Shown one piece after another: positions 3,056-43,738 of a stretch of DNA of 64,000 bases. The notes beneath the pieces are model-generated. The model saw only the letters and a list, made by a program, of their open reading frames with translations. It was not told the DNA's origin and did no database searches. The stretch comes from an uncultured Deferribacteres bacterium (lineage in GTDB: Bacteria > Zhuqueibacterota > JdFR-76 > DREG01), in the NCBI GenBank assembly GCA_913009825.1, contig CAJVYQ010000004.1, positions 1-64,000 on the forward strand, read 5' to 3'. The position numbers were made by a program, and so were the translations under genes. Each line of letters starts with the position of its first letter. Position 1 is the stretch's first letter.

Positions 3056-3595
3056 ATGAATGAAACAGATAAACAGAATTCAGAGACAACAGATATTAAA
3101 ATAAATGACGATAGTACTGATCAGATGGTTACCGGAGCAGAAGATACATCTGAAAAAAGCGAAAAACAGGCTCCGGATTATTATGAAATGCTGCAGCGTC
3201 TTCAGGCTGATTTTGACAATTATCGCAGACGTACGAATAAGGAGAAGGAAGAACTGGCCAATTATGTCCGGCGTGAAATGATTCGGCAGTTACTACCTGT
3301 TATCGATGATCTGGAACGGTTATTAGAGGTAAAATCCGGTCAACATGATCTTGAACATGGAGCTCGGTTGATCTATAAAAATTTTCTAACTGTCCTAAAA
3401 AATCTTGGTATGAAAAGTTTTACGGATCAGGGGAAAAATTTCGATCCCAATATTCATGAAGCGCTGTCTGTAAAGAAGTCTCCGCTGGAATTAGATGGAA
3501 AAATCGTTGAAACTTTGCAGAAAGGGTACTGGTTAAAAGACAAACTTCTGCGACCTGCGAAAGTGATTGTCGGACAGAACGATGGAACTGAATGA
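3056..3595 (+). CDS. grpE: nucleotide exchange factor GrpE
   Basis: 179-residue cytoplasmic co-chaperone that releases ADP from DnaK. An acidic, disordered N-terminus (about 1-45) is followed by the long dimerising coiled coil ('YYEMLQRLQADFDNYRRRTNKEKEE', about 45-70). The beta-wing domain ends with the GrpE signature region near 'NFDPNIHEALSV...LQKGYWLKDKLLRPAKVIVG'. An upstream TTG at 3002 extends the frame, but ATG 3056 gives a normal GrpE N-terminus, so I prefer it; the ribosome-binding site is weak. It opens a grpE-dnaJ-htrA run with 14- and 16-nt gaps, pointing to one transcript. Confidence 0.95.
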   Translation: MNETDKQNSETTDIKINDDSTDQMVTGAEDTSEKSEKQAPDYYEMLQRLQADFDNYRRRTNKEKEELANYVRREMIRQLLPVIDDLERLLEVKSGQHDLEHGARLIYKNFLTVLKNLGMKSFTDQGKNFDPNIHEALSVKKSPLELDGKIVETLQKGYWLKDKLLRPAKVIVGQNDGTE

Positions 3596-3609
3596 GGCGA
3601 TTTGGATAA

Positions 3610-4509
3610 ATGAATAAAGATTACTACAAAATTTTAGGTGTTTCCGAAACGGCGAATCCCGCAGAAATAAAAAAAATCTATAGAAAACTGGCAAAGCAGT
3701 ATCATCCGGATTCTCATCCTAATGATAAGCAGGCGGAGAATCGGTTCAAAGAAATTTCTGCAGCTTACCAGGTGCTCTCCGACCCGGAAAAACGGCGCGA
3801 ATATGATGAGTTTAGAAAGTATGGGGGTGCCATGCCGGGCGGCGGCAATTTTGGTGATGTCCATTTCAACTGGGGTTCTCCCAAAGACGCTTCAGGAATG
3901 GGAGGAAGTACCTTCGGCGATCTCTTTTCTCAGTTTTTCGGCGGCTCCGAAAGTGGCAGAAGAACACACAGCAGCAGACCGGTGCGGGGGCAGAATGTTG
4001 AAGCGGATCTGACGATCCCATTTGAAGTGGCTGCTCTCGGCGGAAAGCAGCCTTTTGCGGTTAATTATGGCGGCAAGAAGAAAACCTTTTCCGTAAATAT
4101 CAAGCCGGGAATCGAAGACGGGGAAAAAATCAGACTGAGAGGACAGGGTTCACCGGAATACGGCGGACAGCCGGGCGATTTGATATTGACGGTGCATATT
4201 TCGCCCCATCCGGTTTTTTACCGCGAAGAGTTAAATATTATCTCAAAGGTTAAAATAAATTTGGCTCAGGCGTTGTTGGGAACAAAAATACAGGTTAACA
4301 CAGTTGAAGGAAAGACAGTGCAGTTGAGAATTCACCCGGGAAGCCAAAACGGGCAACGGCTTCGTCTGAAAAAAATGGGAATTAAAACAAAGGATGGTCG
4401 GGTAGGAGATCAATTTGTAGAGTTGGAAGTGGTTTTACCGGAGAGTCTGGATCGCTCCCAAAAAAAAATGATCGAGGAATTTGCCCGGGCCAGCAATATG
4501 AGTTATTAA
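3610..4509 (+). CDS. DnaJ-family co-chaperone without zinc finger (type II, CbpA-like)
   Basis: J-domain at the N-terminus with the HPD tripeptide ('LAKQYHPDSHPND', about 23-35) that stimulates DnaK ATPase. A Gly/Phe-rich linker (about 75-125) follows, then the DnaJ C-terminal beta-domain (about 130-295). The cysteine-rich zinc-finger repeats (CxxCxGxG) of classical DnaJ are absent, which explains the short length of 299 residues. By architecture it is a class B or CbpA-type J-protein. Because it sits in the grpE operon and no canonical dnaJ is visible in the window, it may serve as a main DnaK partner here; whether another dnaJ exists elsewhere cannot be seen. Confidence 0.93.
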   Translation: MNKDYYKILGVSETANPAEIKKIYRKLAKQYHPDSHPNDKQAENRFKEISAAYQVLSDPEKRREYDEFRKYGGAMPGGGNFGDVHFNWGSPKDASGMGGSTFGDLFSQFFGGSESGRRTHSSRPVRGQNVEADLTIPFEVAALGGKQPFAVNYGGKKKTFSVNIKPGIEDGEKIRLRGQGSPEYGGQPGDLILTVHISPHPVFYREELNIISKVKINLAQALLGTKIQVNTVEGKTVQLRIHPGSQNGQRLRLKKMGIKTKDGRVGDQFVELEVVLPESLDRSQKKMIEEFARASNMSY

Positions 4510-4525
4510 ACCTGGAGGAAATGTC

Positions 4526-6061
4526 ATGGATCGAAATAAAAAACTGGGATTATGGGTAGCGCTGGCTTTTGTATTGGGGGCCATTGTCACTGTTGTTCTA
4601 ACGTCTCAATTGGATGTGACAAATCGCGTTATCGCATCATCATCGGATAAACCAAAGGTAACGGAAGCGGACAAATCCGCATCTGTCGCAAATTCCTTGT
4701 CACAGGATCAGGAAAATCTGATTAACCAGCTAAACGGAGTCTTTATCCAGGCGGCAAAGAAGGTGAGACCTTCGATTGTGACCATTTACAGTGAAAAAAT
4801 CATCAAAATGCGCGGCTATCGCAGTCCGTTTGATCTATTTTTTGGCGACCAATTTTTTAACGGAAAACGTCCTCCGGAAAAAGAGAGAAAATATGTACAA
4901 CGCGGCATGGGCTCCGGTGTTATCGTTAAGGCAGATGGAATTATTTTAACCAATTATCATGTTGTTAAAGGAGCAGATGATATTCGGGTTAAAACCAACG
5001 ACGGGGAGGAGTATGAAGCGGAGGTGGTTGGCTCGGATCCTAAAACAGATTTGGCCATCATTCGAATTGAGAAATCCGGTCTGCCGTTTGCCACATTGGG
5101 GGATTCCGACGAGTTGGAAGTTGGCGAGTGGGTTTTGGCCATCGGTAATCCGTTTTCCGAAGAATTGCGCTATACGGTAACACAAGGGATCGTCAGCGCG
5201 AAAGGAAGAAAAGGATTGGGAATAGCCGAAGGGCGCGGCTACGAGAATTTTATCCAGACCGATGCGGCTATCAATCCGGGCAATAGCGGCGGCGCTCTGA
5301 TGAACCTGCATGGAGAGGTTGTGGGGATTAACACGGCAATCATTTCTCCCACCGGCGGCTTTGCCGGAGTGGGTTTCGCCATTCCTATCAATATGGCCAG
5401 CAAAGTGATGAATGATCTGATCACCAAAGGAAAAGTGGTGCGCGGTTGGTTGGGCGTAGCTATCCAACCGGTGGATAAAGATATGGCCAGAGCCCTTAAT
5501 TTGAAAGCGAATGAAGGCGTCATTGTCAGTAATGTTACGAAAAATAGTCCCGCTGAAAAAGCGGGCATCCAACCTGCCGATGTGATTGTAAAATTCAATA
5601 ATGAGAAAGTAAAAAGCGCTGATCAACTTAGCTTTTTAGTCGCGGATGTTCCTCCCGGAAGCGCTGTGGATGTAATCATTAATCGCGATGGAGAAAGAAA
5701 GAAGCTGAAAGTGACCATTGCTGAAATGGGCGGTGAATCAACACCTGTAGCGCCGCTCGCCGCCAGGAATGCTGAGAAAATTGGTATTAAAGTGGAAAAT
5801 TTGACTCAGGCAACCGCAAGCAAGCAAAATTATGAAATAGGCAGCGGTGTTCTGATCACCAGTGTGGATGTGGCTAAAGATGGCTACCGCAAAGGTTTGC
5901 GGGAAGGTGATCTGATCAAAGAGATCAATCGTAAGAAAGTACCGAGTGTGGCTGAATTTAATAAAATAATGCGGTCCGTTAAACCCGGCCATGTTCTCCT
6001 TCTTATGGTGCAGCGGGGCAAAAACAATTTCTTTGTGGCGGTTGAGGTGCCGAAAAAATAA
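4526..6061 (+). CDS. periplasmic serine protease DegP/HtrA family (Do-like)
   Basis: 511 residues: an N-terminal signal or anchor helix (about 7-27), a trypsin-like protease domain, and two C-terminal PDZ domains (about 300-395 and 415-505). The catalytic triad is visible: His in 'ILTNYHVVKGADD', Asp in 'GSDPKTDLAIIRI', Ser in 'NPGNSGGALMN'. The enzyme degrades or refolds misfolded envelope proteins, with PDZ domains controlling assembly and activation. GGAGG at 4513-4517 sets the start at 4526. Its position behind grpE-dnaJ ties envelope and cytoplasmic protein quality control into one operon. A hairpin terminator follows at 6127-6175. Confidence 0.94.
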   Translation: MDRNKKLGLWVALAFVLGAIVTVVLTSQLDVTNRVIASSSDKPKVTEADKSASVANSLSQDQENLINQLNGVFIQAAKKVRPSIVTIYSEKIIKMRGYRSPFDLFFGDQFFNGKRPPEKERKYVQRGMGSGVIVKADGIILTNYHVVKGADDIRVKTNDGEEYEAEVVGSDPKTDLAIIRIEKSGLPFATLGDSDELEVGEWVLAIGNPFSEELRYTVTQGIVSAKGRKGLGIAEGRGYENFIQTDAAINPGNSGGALMNLHGEVVGINTAIISPTGGFAGVGFAIPINMASKVMNDLITKGKVVRGWLGVAIQPVDKDMARALNLKANEGVIVSNVTKNSPAEKAGIQPADVIVKFNNEKVKSADQLSFLVADVPPGSAVDVIINRDGERKKLKVTIAEMGGESTPVAPLAARNAEKIGIKVENLTQATASKQNYEIGSGVLITSVDVAKDGYRKGLREGDLIKEINRKKVPSVAEFNKIMRSVKPGHVLLLMVQRGKNNFFVAVEVPKK

Positions 6062-8017: not shown

Positions 8018-8294
8018 GTAAAACCTCAGTTACGGGTGGATAAAAGTGGTTTCGCTTCATTATTTTGTAGCCTGAGCTAGCCATTTTAGAGTTCTGAAAA
8101 CCTTATTTTTATCTTTTACACCTTAATAGCATGATTTGCAACTAAGTCTCTAAACCTTATTACCTTAGTTGTGATATGAAAGCATGAAAAATAAGGTAAT
8201 AAGGTAAAAATGGGGTGGGGCTACTTGCAGCTATTAAGGTTGAAAAAACAAAAATAAGGTTTATGCATACTTCCACCCGTAACTGAGGTTTTAC
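8018..8294. repeat. MITE-like element, family 1 copy a (GTAA ends)
   Basis: 277-bp non-coding element. Its outer arms, GTAAAACCTCAGTTACGGG (from 8018) and the reverse complement ending at 8294, are perfectly inverted over 23 bp. Inside are nested inverted repeats built on AAGGT/ACCTT motifs (8097-8112 with 8250-8264, and 8153-8168 with 8190-8205). The flanks TATTTTTC and CATTTTTT match at 6 of 8 positions, which may be a worn 8-bp target duplication. A related element lies at 43480-43738. Confidence 0.7.
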
Positions 8295-8450
8295 CATTTT
8301 TTCACTCACCGCTTATTTCTGCCACATCGTCTGTAATTATGACATGTTGACCGGTAGTTTGACACCCCGTACAAAAAAAATGGTGTGAGAAAATGCTGAG
8401 TTCTTTGTAACTCATTGATTATTAGTAGAATAAATAAATATTCCCTTTTT

Positions 8451-8466
8451 TGGCACGATGCTTGCT
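8451..8466 (+). promoter_or_regulatory. sigma-54 (-24/-12) promoter of hsp20
   Basis: TGGCACG-ATGC-TTGCT is an exact match to the RpoN consensus TGGCACG-N4-TTGCW, with GG and GC at the required spacing. Transcription would begin near 8477, leaving a leader of about 24 nt that contains the GGAG ribosome-binding site (8491-8494) and then ATG 8501. The geometry fits a real promoter. Sigma-54 needs an enhancer-binding activator; none is encoded in this window. dnaK, 70 nt after hsp20, may be co-transcribed. Confidence 0.85.
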
Positions 8467-8500
8467 TTTAAGAGAGCGAAATAAAAAAAAGGAGAATATT

Positions 8501-8950
8501 ATGACATTTTTAACGAACACATATCCCGGGGAAAATACGGTCGTGGATCTGATCAATCATTTTTTGGCACAGGATAATTGGGCTGCGAATGAAAATGAAT
8601 CTTCATTATCTTTCGGCGTAGACGCAGCGACAAATAATTTTCCGGCAGTTGATATTGCCGAATCGGACAATACTTATTTGTTCAGAGCTGAACTGCCGGG
8701 ATTTAAATCGGAAGATTTGGATATAAAGCTTGAAAAAGGAAATCTTGTCTTACGGGGAAAGAATGAGGAAAATCCGGAAAATGCCCAATATCTTCACCGC
8801 GAGAGGTTCAGCGGGGAATTTGTGCGGCATTTCCTGCTTCCGGATAACGTATTATCCCGTGATTTGAAGGCGGAGTTGAAAAATGGAATACTCACTATCG
8901 TTCTGCCCAAAAAAGAAGAAGCAAAAGTGAGAGAAATAAAGATTCAATAA
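8501..8950 (+). CDS. small heat-shock protein, Hsp20/alpha-crystallin family
   Basis: 149 residues. A variable N-terminal arm (1-45) precedes the alpha-crystallin domain (about 46-140), which contains 'PAVDIAESDNTYLFRAELPG', 'LEKGNLVLRGKN' and the closing 'LKAELKNGILTIVLPK' (A-x-x-x-x-G-V/I-L motif). A C-terminal 'REIKIQ' carries the I-x-I anchoring motif. Such proteins hold unfolding clients for DnaK and ClpB, whose genes follow. A TTG at 8450 lies inside the promoter and cannot be the start; ATG 8501 with GGAG at 8491-8494 is. Confidence 0.93.
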   Translation: MTFLTNTYPGENTVVDLINHFLAQDNWAANENESSLSFGVDAATNNFPAVDIAESDNTYLFRAELPGFKSEDLDIKLEKGNLVLRGKNEENPENAQYLHRERFSGEFVRHFLLPDNVLSRDLKAELKNGILTIVLPKKEEAKVREIKIQ

Positions 8951-9020
8951 GTGATAATTTCATTGAAAATAAAATGAATTTGTAAACGAATACAAAATAA
9001 TCTTTAGGAGGTTACTGAGA

Positions 9021-10946
9021 ATGGGAAAGATAATTGGCATCGACCTGGGAACAACAAACTCATGTGTGTCTGTGATGGTGGGCGGTGAGCCTGTTGTAAT
9101 TCAAAATGCAGAAGGTATGCGCACCACGCCTTCGATGATCGGTTTTCTTAAAACCGGTGAAAGAGTTGTGGGACAGCCGGCAAAACGGCAGGCTGTAACA
9201 AATCCCGACAAAACGATTTATTCGATTAAACGTTTTATGGGGCGAATGTTTAATGAGGTCAACAATGAAATTGAACAGGTTCCTTACAAAGTTGTTAAAG
9301 GGAAAAACAATACGGCGGCAGTTAAAATCGATGACAAAGAATATACGCCGCAGGAATTATCCGCGATGATTCTGCAAAAAATGAAACAAACGGCGGAAGA
9401 TTATCTCGGAGAAAAAGTGGTAGAAGCCGTGATTACCGTTCCCGCTTATTTTAACGATAGTCAGCGAAAAGCGACGAAGGAAGCCGGTGAAATTGCCGGT
9501 TTGACTGTGCGGCGAATCATCAATGAACCGACAGCCGCTTCTCTTGCTTACGGATTGGATAAGAAAAAAGATGAAAAAATCGCCGTTTTTGATTTGGGCG
9601 GCGGCACTTTTGATATTTCCATTCTGGAATTGGGCGAAGGTGTGTTTGAAGTAAAATCCACAAACGGGGATACTCATTTAGGCGGCGACGATTTTGACAA
9701 ACGAATTATCGATTGGATGATCGACGAGTTTATCAAACAGGAAGGCGTGGATTTGAGCAAAGATGCCATGGCGTTGCAGCGTTTACGGGAAACGGCGGAA
9801 AAAGCCAAAAGCGAACTATCCAGCACGGCTCAGACCGATATTAATCTGCCGTTTATCACCGCAACGGATGCCGGACCAAAGCATTTAACCATGACTTTAA
9901 CCCGGGCGAAATTCGAACAACTGTGTGATGACCTGTTTAACCGGACCATCGAACCGTGCCGTATCGCGATGAAAGATGCCGGATTGACGGTGAATGATAT
10001 CGATGAAGTAATTTTGGTTGGTGGTTCAACCAGAATTCCGAAAGTGCAGGAAATTGTGAAGGACTTGTTCTCTAAGGAGCCCAACAAGGGTGTGAATCCC
10101 GATGAAGTTGTTGCCGTCGGCGCTGGGATCCAGGGTGGCGTTCTGGCCGGTGATGTGAAAGATGTTCTCTTGTTGGACGTTACGCCGCTTTCATTTGGCA
10201 TTGAAACGTTAGGCGGAGTTTTCACCAGGCTGATTGAAAAAAACACCACCATCCCGACGAAAAAAAACGAGGTTTTCACCACAGCTGCAGATAATCAAAC
10301 CTCGGTGGAAATTCATATTCTGCAGGGTGAACGGCAGATGGCCAACTACAACAAATCGCTGGGCCGCTTCCATCTGGATGGCATTCCGTCTGCTCCGCGG
10401 GGAATTCCGCAAATTGAAGTGATCTTTGATATCGATGCCAACGGCATCCTCAATGTTACCGCAAAAGACAAAGCCACCGGCAAAGAGCAATCGATACGCA
10501 TCGAAGCTTCTTCCGGTTTATCGCAGGAAGAGATCGACCGGATGGTAAAAGATGCGGAAGCACATGTTGCCGATGACAAACAGCAGCGGGAAATTGTGGA
10601 TACCCGCAACCACGCGGATCAGTTGATTTATCAGACTGAAAAAGATCTGAAAGAACAGAGCGACAAAATTTCTGCCGACGATAAAAACAAAACTGAAACT
10701 GCTATCGGCAGATTGAAAGAAGCCATTAAAACAGACAATCTGGAAGAAATGAAATCGGCCACCGATGCATTAAATACAATCTGGGCAGAAGCTGCGAGTA
10801 AAATGTATGCACAAGCGCAGCAGGAAGAACAGGCTAAGGCGCAGGCCGATGCAGGGCCTCAAGCTCAGGCTGCAGATGAAAGTAAAGAATCGGGCAAAAA
10901 AGTTGAAGATGCGGACTTTGAAGTGATCGATGACAAAGACAAGTAA
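9021..10946 (+). CDS. dnaK: chaperone DnaK (Hsp70)
   Basis: 641 residues, full length. The nucleotide-binding domain starts '[15 protein letters not shown]' and carries the other two Hsp70 signatures: '[16 protein letters not shown]' near 192-207 and '[14 protein letters not shown]' near 333-346. The substrate-binding beta domain ('[18 protein letters not shown]') is followed by the helical lid and an Ala/Gln-rich tail ending in acidic '[13 protein letters not shown]', the usual bacterial C-terminus. TAGGAGG at 9004-9010 supports ATG 9021. A strong terminator follows at 10979-11018. It lies between hsp20 and clpB and works with GrpE and the J-protein encoded upstream. Confidence 0.98.
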
Positions 10947-10978: not shown

Positions 10979-11018
10979 AAAACGGCGAGTTAAGAATTAC
11001 TTCTCGCCGTTTTTTTTT
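10979..11018 (+). terminator. Rho-independent terminator between dnaK and clpB
   Basis: AACGGCGAG pairs with CTCGCCGTT across a short loop and is followed by nine T residues. It sits only about 35 nt before the clpB start, so clpB expression must come from partial read-through or from a promoter overlapping this hairpin. Confidence 0.85.
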
Positions 11019-11052: not shown

Positions 11053-13665
11053 ATGACGATCGATAAATTAACGTTGAAAGCTCAGGAGGCGATGCAGGCT
11101 GCACAGCAGATTGCGCTTCAGTATAATCATCAACAGATAGATGCGGAGCATTTGCTGCTGGCCATGTTAAACGACACAGAAGGAATCACTATTTCCATGT
11201 TGAAAAAACTGGGTGTGGATCCCGGTCTGCTAAGTTCGCAACTGACGGAAAAAGTGGCGAAAATTGCCAAAGTGTACGGCCAGGTGTCCAACCTGTACAT
11301 GTCACAACGGCTCAATAAAATTCTTGAAAATGCATTTCAGGAAGCGACAAAATTTAAAGATGATTATGTCAGTCTGGAACATGTTCTGCTGGCCATAACC
11401 GGGGAAGACGGAGAAGCTGGAAATTTGCTGCGCGAAAACGGCGTTACCAAAGATAACGTGTACCAGGTGTTAAAATCGATCCGCGGCGGGCAGAGAATCA
11501 CGGATCAAAATCCGGAAGACAAATACCAGGCATTGCAGCGATACGGCCAGAATCTGACCGATTTGGCCAGGAAGGGTAAATTGGATCCTGTCATCGGCCG
11601 GGATGAAGAAATTCGCCGGATTTTACAGGTGCTTTCCCGGCGCACCAAGAACAACCCCGTTTTGATCGGTGATCCCGGCGTTGGCAAAACCGCCATCGCC
11701 GAAGGTCTGGCACACCGGATTGTCTCCGGGGATGTGCCGGAGAATCTGAAAAACAAACAGGTTGTCTCGCTGGATATGGGCGCGTTGATTGCCGGGGCAA
11801 AATTCCGCGGCGAATTTGAGGAGCGTCTCAAGGCGGTTCTGCGGGAAATTACCGAATCGGACGGACAGATCATCCTGTTCATCGATGAACTGCATACGCT
11901 GGTAGGCGCCGGCTCGGCGGAAGGCGCCATCGACGCCTCCAACATGTTGAAACCGGCTCTGGCCCGGGGCGAACTGCGTGCCATCGGCGCTACCACAATC
12001 GATGAATACCGCAAATACATCGAAAAAGATGCCGCGTTGGAACGGCGTTTTCAGCCGGTGATGATCGATGAACCCAGCGTGGAAGATACTATTTCCATTC
12101 TGCGCGGTCTGCAGGAAAAATACGAGGTCCATCATGGTGTGCGCATCAAAGATTCGGCAATCATTGCCGCGGCAACTCTTTCCCATCGTTATATAGCCGA
12201 CCGGTTTTTACCCGACAAGGCTATCGATTTGATCGATGAAGCTGCTTCCAAGCTGCGTATTGAAATTGACAGTATGCCGGAAGAGTTGGACGAAGTGGAA
12301 AGAAAAATCAAACAGTTGGAAATCGAGCGGGTAGCAGTTAAACGGGATAAAGAAGAAATGTCCCAAAAGCGGCTGGGGAAAATAAATGAAGATTTAGCCA
12401 ACCTGCAGGAAAAACAACATGAATTGCGTAACCATTGGCAGCTTGAAAAGAGTACTATTCAGAAGATTCGTAAAATAAAAGAGGAGATGGAACAAACCAA
12501 AATACTCATTTCGCGAGTGGAAAGGGACGGAGATCTGAACCGGGCCGCCGAATTAAAATATGGCAAATTGATTGAATTACAGAAACATCTTCAAGTAGAG
12601 AATGAAAAGTTACAAACCATCCAAAAGAACCGGAAAATGTTGAAAGAGGAGATCGATGAAGATGACATTGCTGAGATTGTTGCCAAATGGACCGGTATTC
12701 CTGTTCACCGCATGCTGGAATCCGAGCGTGAAAAATTGCTCCACATGGATGAGCGTTTACAGCAGCGTGTAATCGGCCAGGATGAAGCCACCGTTGCGGT
12801 GTCCGATGCCATTCGCCGCGCACGTGCCGGGATGCAGGATGAAAACCGGCCGATCGGTTCCTTTATCTTTTTGGGTTCAACCGGTGTAGGAAAAACGGAA
12901 TTGGCACGGGCGCTTGCCGAATTCCTTTTTGATGATGACAGCGCGATGGTGCGCATCGACATGTCCGAATATATGGAACGGCACTCGGTAGCCAGGTTGG
13001 TCGGCGCGCCTCCCGGCTATGTAGGATACAACGAGGGCGGTCAGCTTACGGAAGCAGTCCGGCGCATGCCCTATTCGGTGGTTTTATTAGATGAAATCGA
13101 GAAAGCCCATCCGGAGGTGTTCAACATTCTGCTTCAGGTTCTGGACGAAGGCCGGCTGACGGACAACAAAGGCAGAACGGTGAATTTTAAAAACAGTATC
13201 ATCATTATGACTTCGAATTTGGGTGCGCAGATGATGATGGAGAAGGCGCAGAGAATCACTGACCAAAATCGGGAACAAATCTATCGTGAAATGCGGTATG
13301 AAGCATTTGAGATGTTAAAACAATCGTTGCGGCCGGAATTTTTAAATCGTATCGATGAAATTATTGTTTTCCATCCCCTCAGCAAAAAAGACATTCGCGA
13401 AATTGTCAGATTGCAGTTTGCCATGATTCAGAACAAAGCCAGGCAGATCGGTATATCGCTGGAAATTACAGAGCGTGCACTCGATTTTCTGGCCGAAGTT
13501 GGTTTTGATCCGGTTTTTGGTGCAAGGCCATTGAAGCGGGAATTGCAACGTTTGGTGACTAATGAATTTTCCAAAAAAATATTGGCAGGTGAATTTGGCA
13601 ATGGAGATATGATTTCCGTGGTTCTGAAAGAAAATTCACTTGATTTTAAAAAAAAATCTAATTAG
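11053..13665 (+). CDS. clpB: disaggregase ClpB (Hsp100)
   Basis: 870 residues, the full ClpB length. The N-terminal Clp-N repeat domain covers about 1-145. AAA+ module 1 has Walker A '[13 protein letters not shown]' and Walker B '[15 protein letters not shown]'. A long coiled-coil M-domain (about 400-530), diagnostic of ClpB over ClpA/C, is followed by AAA+ module 2 with '[16 protein letters not shown]' and '[14 protein letters not shown]'. It threads aggregated proteins and hands them to DnaK. The frame opens at ATG 11020, but AAGGAGG at 11038-11044 and the family N-terminus '[15 protein letters not shown]' place the start at 11053. Confidence 0.98.
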
Positions 13666-43479: not shown

Positions 43480-43738
43480 GTAATACCTCACTTACGGGTT
43501 GATAATAAAATGCAATCAGTACCAAAAGATTCATGTTCTGTTTACATCAGGTTTTGATGCTGCTCATTTAATGTTCTGTAACCCCAAATAGCACACGGAT
43601 TACGCGGATGACACAGATACACACGGATAAAATCTGTGAAAATCAGTGTGATCCGTGTCATCCGTGTTCTGTTTACTATTTTAGTTGAATAGATATAATA
43701 ACATAAACAAATATTCACACCAATAAGTGAGGTGTTAC
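43480..43738. repeat. MITE-like element, family 1 copy b (GTAA ends, 8-bp duplication)
   Basis: Starts GTAATACCTCACTTACGGG and ends CCAATAAGTGAGGTGTTAC. The flanks AAATAAAA (before) and AAATAAAA (after) are an exact 8-bp direct repeat. GTAA ends with 8-bp duplications are the mark of IS66-type transposition. The interior carries a large imperfect palindrome of CACGGAT/ATCCGTG units at 43591-43670. No coding sequence. Homologous ends with the element at 8018-8294. Confidence 0.75.

Follow-up and report, generated by a model that had tools for sequence, protein, structure and literature searches.

The window (the whole 64-kb stretch of DNA that was analysed) carries hsp20, dnaK and clpB in this order on the plus strand. 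The first gene, hsp20 (8501-8950), encodes a small heat-shock protein of 149 aa (Pfam HSP20, 8e-25) and is preceded by the ribosome-binding site AGGAG at 8490-8494 (+), recognised from the sequence. The second, dnaK (9021-10946; 641 aa, Pfam HSP70), starts after a gap of 70 nt in which neither a terminator nor a promoter-like site was found. Of the relatives G001-G006, all but G004 showed the hsp20-dnaK order, which is conserved in the bacterial order concerned and also outside it. Because of this gap and the conserved order, dnaK is probably co-transcribed with hsp20; its placement on the hsp20 transcript is considered likely, in the absence of transcript data. No sigma-54 site of its own was found for dnaK in the window. 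The sequence-only reading had allowed that dnaK "perhaps" shares the hsp20 promoter, and on these three grounds co-transcription was rated very likely. Downstream of dnaK, a hairpin with a T-run (10980-11018, +; fold -24.7 kcal/mol, z -3.7) is a likely terminator or attenuator, and leaves about 35 nt before the clpB start for any clpB promoter. The membership of clpB (11053-13665; 870 aa, Pfam Clp_N, AAA_2 and ClpB_D2-small) in the unit is uncertain; it could possibly be reached by read-through past the hairpin.

A sigma-54 promoter was located at 8450-8466 (+), with the -24 element TTGGCACG and the -12 element TTGCT. Its core, TGGCACGATGCTTGCT at 8451-8466, is completed by the T just 5' of it to the full YTGGCACG-N4-TTGCW. 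The whole site, TTGGCACG-ATGC-TTGCT, scored 21.8 of a possible 23.2 bits with a sigma-54 consensus weight matrix that was drawn up from the generally known consensus, without training on these data. The GG of the -24 element and the GC of the -12 element stand at the YTGGCAC-N5-TTGCW spacing expected of such a promoter. The claim of an exact sigma-54 promoter at 8451-8466 thus held, as did, essentially, the claim that it lies 35 nt before the hsp20 start (34 nt were measured to the ATG at 8501). Exact matches to TGGCACNNNNNTTGCW numbered four in the 5.1-Mb genome vs. three for the reversed control, i.e. the count alone is at chance level. The other exact copy in the window (57877) was dismissed as a promoter, as it lies inside a coding gene. 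The hsp20 site is raised above chance by its placement, its conservation across the phylum and its coupling to a conserved upstream element (see below).

Sigma-54 sites were found before three of the four hsp20 operons of the genome. When one mismatch was allowed, 23 matches were obtained genome-wide, of which three lie just upstream of hsp20 operons: the window copy, C18:37481 and C31:21333, the latter two standing 188 and 56 nt, respectively, from the ATG. The hsp20 gene on contig C41 had no sigma-54 site within 350 bp; a one-mismatch match in its neighbourhood (38635) was rejected, being in another reading frame and several hundred bp upstream. For a wider sample, hsp20 upstream regions were drawn from about 80 relatives. 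A site of at least 12 bits was present in 94 of 128 regions in the sense orientation vs. 1 of 128 in the antisense orientation, and the regions without a site mostly belonged to genes in second position within an hsp20 pair or operon. Within the phylum (KSB1/Calditrichota-type), 64 of the 68 genomes tested had an hsp20 site of at least 13 bits, so that the same promoter, when looked for before hsp20 in relatives, was found. It is very likely that 8450-8466 is a functional sigma-54 promoter. Sigma-54 control of hsp20 is thus strongly supported by conservation, not by transcript mapping. As a separate observation, a lineage-specific -12 variant, TTGTA or TTGTT (GT for GC), occurs in several genomes of the phylum at otherwise conserved hsp20 promoters (e.g. 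L051, L061 and L190).

The regions upstream of 89 -24 boxes were used as input for a palindromic motif search. The palindrome gTCTGcCAaatTGgCAGAc was recovered de novo, with a log-likelihood ratio (LLR) of 461 vs. 52-76 in shuffled sets; simple dyad counting gave only a weak signal for this element, and it was the matrix method that succeeded. With the matrix derived from these 89 hsp20 upstream regions, the palindromic GTCTGTAATTATGACATGT at 8329-8347 (no strand assigned) scored 16.3 bits and was taken as the enhancer, i.e. the predicted activator site. A distance of about 112 bp separates its center from the -24 element downstream, and nowhere else in the 64-kb window do enhancer and promoter occur together. 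In the set, most promoters are preceded by between one and three copies at distances of 70-140 bp, the spacings being close to 20, 30 and 40 bp. The copies show helical phasing with a period of 10.25 bp (nR2 of 30.5 vs. 9.3 for the 99.9% random level). Such phasing is the pattern expected of a protein on one face of the helix, for which there are no binding data. The hsp20 promoter thus shows another hallmark of sigma-54 promoters, a helically phased site for an activator at an appropriate distance upstream. Weak matches overlap the main site at 8317-8335 (TTCTGCCACATCGTCTGTA; 7.3 bits; no strand assigned) and 8337-8355 (9.7 bits); the former may be a second enhancer-like half, a tentative assignment. 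Between enhancer and promoter, TAACTCATTGATT (8408-8420, -) matches YAANNNNTTGATW exactly and resembles an IHF site. This assignment also remains tentative, because the enrichment of IHF-like sites in the set was mild (46 of 89 regions with one mismatch allowed vs. about 22 expected).

The repeat at 8018-8294 resembles a MITE: its terminal inverted repeats are perfect over 23 bp, more inverted repeats lie inside it, and it sits as an insertion with a zinc-ribbon gene on one side and the hsp20 enhancer on the other. The sequence-only reading had placed the end of this repeat about 155 nt upstream of the promoter, which held (the right inverted-repeat end is at 8294). Its further hint, that this end is close to where activator sites usually lie, did not hold in the sense of the repeat being the activator site: the element stops 35 bp short of the enhancer, which lies outside it. 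A diverged third end-like copy of the element was noted at 43481-43501.

A fixed pattern (enhancer, 60-120 nt, promoter) had three matches and no more in the 5.1-Mb genome, each at an hsp20 operon; the control gave none. A stricter pattern for the pair gave 78 matches in 81 genomes of the phylum, again with none in the control. About 65 distinct places were examined (two duplicates from overlapping stretches were left out of the counts), and some 57 of them precede hsp20 (17), dnaK (16), grpE (10), dnaJ (6), lon (4), htrA (2) or clpB (2). Two further targets, an Omp85-type protein and a predicted lipoprotein (L362 and L349), hint at envelope members, and six places, mostly at contig ends, could not be resolved for their downstream gene. 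In dnaK loci that were fetched independently, as named records, and were not part of motif training, the pair occurred in 32 of 78 vs. 1 in the antisense orientation. By label, these included KSB1 (11 of 11), Caldithrix (3 of 3), Eisenbacteria (2 of 3), Zixibacteria and some Ignavibacteria; the pair was also seen at some dnaK loci labelled Ignavibacteria/Bacteroidota. The genome's own grpE-dnaJ-htrA operon (window positions 3056-6061) lacks the pair, though its counterparts in relatives have it. The existence of a conserved enhancer with a proteostasis regulon is very likely on these grounds, which are computational only and include no expression data.

A rival explanation is that the 16-bp match arose by chance and that hsp20 is transcribed from a housekeeping or an HrcA-controlled promoter. 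In its favor, the exact-match count is that of the reversed control, and hrcA is present in this genome (L405 1180-2211, G000:C2) and in nearly all genomes compared. However, no CIRCE element (TTAGCACTC-N9-GAGTGCTAA) was found near hsp20, and genome-wide there were just two chance-like sites with three mismatches. HrcA/CIRCE control of hsp20 was dismissed for want of a convincing CIRCE in the genome. No sigma-70-like site was found on the plus strand in 8280-9300. Together with the phylum-wide conservation, the coupling to a phased enhancer and the absence of control matches, these results all but exclude this rival.

The genome encodes rpoN (C6:31729-32205; Pfam DBD, CBD and AID domains) and about 23 enhancer-binding proteins. 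The sequence-only reading would have been refuted by the lack of an rpoN gene, and this refutation therefore does not apply. One of these proteins was singled out as the candidate activator. It is a 387-aa protein (G000:C28, 8107-9270) encoded directly upstream of lptE. It has the features required of an AAA+ activator (a Sigma54_activat domain from residue 16, a GAFTGA loop and Walker motifs) and a C-terminal Fis-type HTH (PF02954, 5e-11). The AAA+ and HTH folds were confirmed, the AAA+ core matching the structures of FleQ, NtrC1 and PspF (for the last, 2c99). There is no N-terminal sensor, a layout like that of PspF, and the model has an extra helix (279-309) between the AAA+ domain and the HTH.

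Among the enhancer-binding proteins of this genome, the candidate alone has full-length counterparts in each of the three genomes used for comparison: it is the reciprocal best match in G003 and G088 and the top full-length match in G025. This elimination rested on four enhancer-bearing genomes, two of which are incomplete. With a model of the candidate's C-terminal part, a clear single ortholog (at least 90 bits; next best at most 56) was found in 77 of 82 phylum genomes. The five without one are G027, G069, G071 and G079, which are incomplete, and G052, which is listed at 96% and yet has an enhancer and promoter before hsp20. Outside the phylum, orthologs were found only in G082, G088 and G090; the first two have enhancer and promoter before hsp20, and the hsp20 promoter of the third is only weak (10.5 bits). 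In G098, hsp20 is preceded by a sigma-54-like site, with neither enhancer nor ortholog. Of 30 loci, 29 have lptE immediately after the candidate gene (the remaining one is at a contig end), all 30 encode GAFTGA, and the recognition helix, ISERTLYRKI-EY, is near-invariant among the orthologs. The co-inheritance of candidate and enhancer is thus shown by computation. From it and the elimination, it is likely that the lptE-linked protein is the activator of the enhancer; that it binds there is inferred. The conserved enhancer, together with a single activator gene inherited along with it, supports to this extent the earlier inference of a dedicated activator. Separately, other sigma-54 activators were seen near dnaK on Eisenbacteria-labelled contigs (L186 3997-5211 and L150 26-1699), one of them directly upstream of hsp20-dnaK; by inspection, they are not of the lptE-linked family.

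It could be argued that the promoter and enhancer are real but are worked by a different activator, one of the roughly 22 others (e.g. a two-component regulator), and that the lptE-linked protein does another job. The large number of activators in the genome (about 23) allows this, as do the hsp20 sites of G052 and G098, which exist without an ortholog. Further, Flavobacterium psychrophilum has three activators, and the authors of that study suggest that several may share sigma-54 promoters (PMC9723704). Against it, no other activator had an ortholog in all four compared genomes, and the candidate's recognition helix and the enhancer are conserved across the same taxa. This alternative is considered unlikely.

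The preferred reading is that the hsp20(-dnaK) sigma-54 promoter belongs to a conserved proteostasis regulon that is worked, most likely, by the lptE-linked activator. A probability of about 0.82 was assigned to it, in the absence of transcript, binding and mutant data. According to this scheme, RNA polymerase with sigma-54 would sit in a closed complex at the -24/-12 elements. A dedicated AAA+ activator, most likely the single-copy, sensor-less, lptE-linked protein, would occupy TCTGYCA-N3-TGRCAGA, 70-130 bp upstream, on the side of the helix that faces the promoter. An IHF-type bend might assist it, and ATP hydrolysis by the activator would open the promoter. In relatives, a matching enhancer-promoter pair would drive hsp20, dnaK, grpE, dnaJ, htrA, clpB and lon. 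Having no sensor, the activator may be restrained in trans, e.g. by a chaperone; this hold-back is inferred.

The nature of the signal, whether heat or unfolded protein, is likewise inferred. Heat is favored as the main one. A competing view, to which clearly less weight is given, is that the signal is envelope or nutrient stress and that the chaperones belong to a general sigma-54 stress response. It is supported by the co-encoding of the activator with lptE, by the Omp85 protein and the predicted lipoprotein among the phylum targets, and by the sigma-54 chaperone promoters of F. psychrophilum, which respond to blood, osmotic pressure and plasma (PMC9723704). Most of the targets by far, however, are chaperones and proteases of the cytoplasm.

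Sigma-54 control of hsp20 is already known in kind, because of two studies. In F. psychrophilum, -24/-12 (SM4) promoters lie at the mapped 5' ends of groESL, lon, dnaK, grpE-dnaJ, htpG, clpB and skp, and an operon of a sigma-54 regulator and lptE, under another sigma-factor motif, is nearby in locus-tag order (PMC9723704). In view of this mapping, the premise that sigma-32, HrcA or CtsR usually control heat-shock genes has to be qualified. That organism shares with the present system the sigma-54 chaperone promoters and the regulator-lptE operon, but it is of a different class, its activator was not assigned, and in the relevant sections no enhancer is described and hsp20 is absent. In a 2025 survey of predicted sigma-54 promoters in Bacteroidota and Planctomycetota, COG0071 (IbpA/Hsp20), DnaK, DnaJ, GrpE and GroESL were enriched (PMC12316311); its text contains neither "Calditrich" nor "hsp20", and the relevant sections give no enhancer or activator for chaperone genes.

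Four other systems bear comparison. PspF of E. coli is a sigma-54 activator without an N-terminal sensor that serves a stress response and is tied to PspA and envelope stress. The sensor-less layout is common to it and the lptE-linked protein, whereas chaperone targets and the extra helix (279-309) are found only in the latter. NorR, a GAF-sensor protein that regulates nitric-oxide genes, recognises GTCA-N3-TGAC; the half-site spacing is equal to that of the hsp20 enhancer and the letters are similar, but the enhancer is longer. In Myxococcus, HsfA/HsfB control lonD (Ueki and Inouye 2002, cited in PMC9548883). The lonD heat-shock regulator is of the NtrC type. HsfA/HsfB is a two-component system activating a heat-shock gene, whereas the lptE-linked candidate has no receiver domain. 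Finally, the second promoter of E. coli ibpB is reportedly sigma-54-dependent. This also is a small heat-shock gene, but an isolated case beside sigma-32. No earlier report of the enhancer, of the assignment of the lptE-linked activator or of the phylum-wide regulon was found in the open-access literature searched; subscription papers were outside the search.

A bolder reading, about as likely to be right as wrong, is that sigma-54 and a single sensor-less activator encoded with lptE control the core protein-repair genes throughout a wide radiation, made up of the KSB1/Calditrichota-type phylum and relatives labelled Ignavibacteria, Eisenbacteria, Latescibacteria and Zixibacteria. An ATP-driven activator tied to outer-membrane assembly would then stand in place of sigma-32, and the arrangement would be ancestral to the flavobacterial system; rpoH was not searched for. 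A sigma-54 regulon would explain chaperone control in these phyla, in which hrcA is present while no recognisable CIRCE exists in the genome studied here. Transcription from a sigma-54 promoter strictly requires an activator. A heat-shock regulon built on such promoters must therefore have a master activator, which the open-access literature searched does not assign. The conserved enhancer provides a testable DNA target for such a protein, together with a single candidate gene that has a likely counterpart, the sigma-54 regulator-lptE operon, in cultured Bacteroidota.
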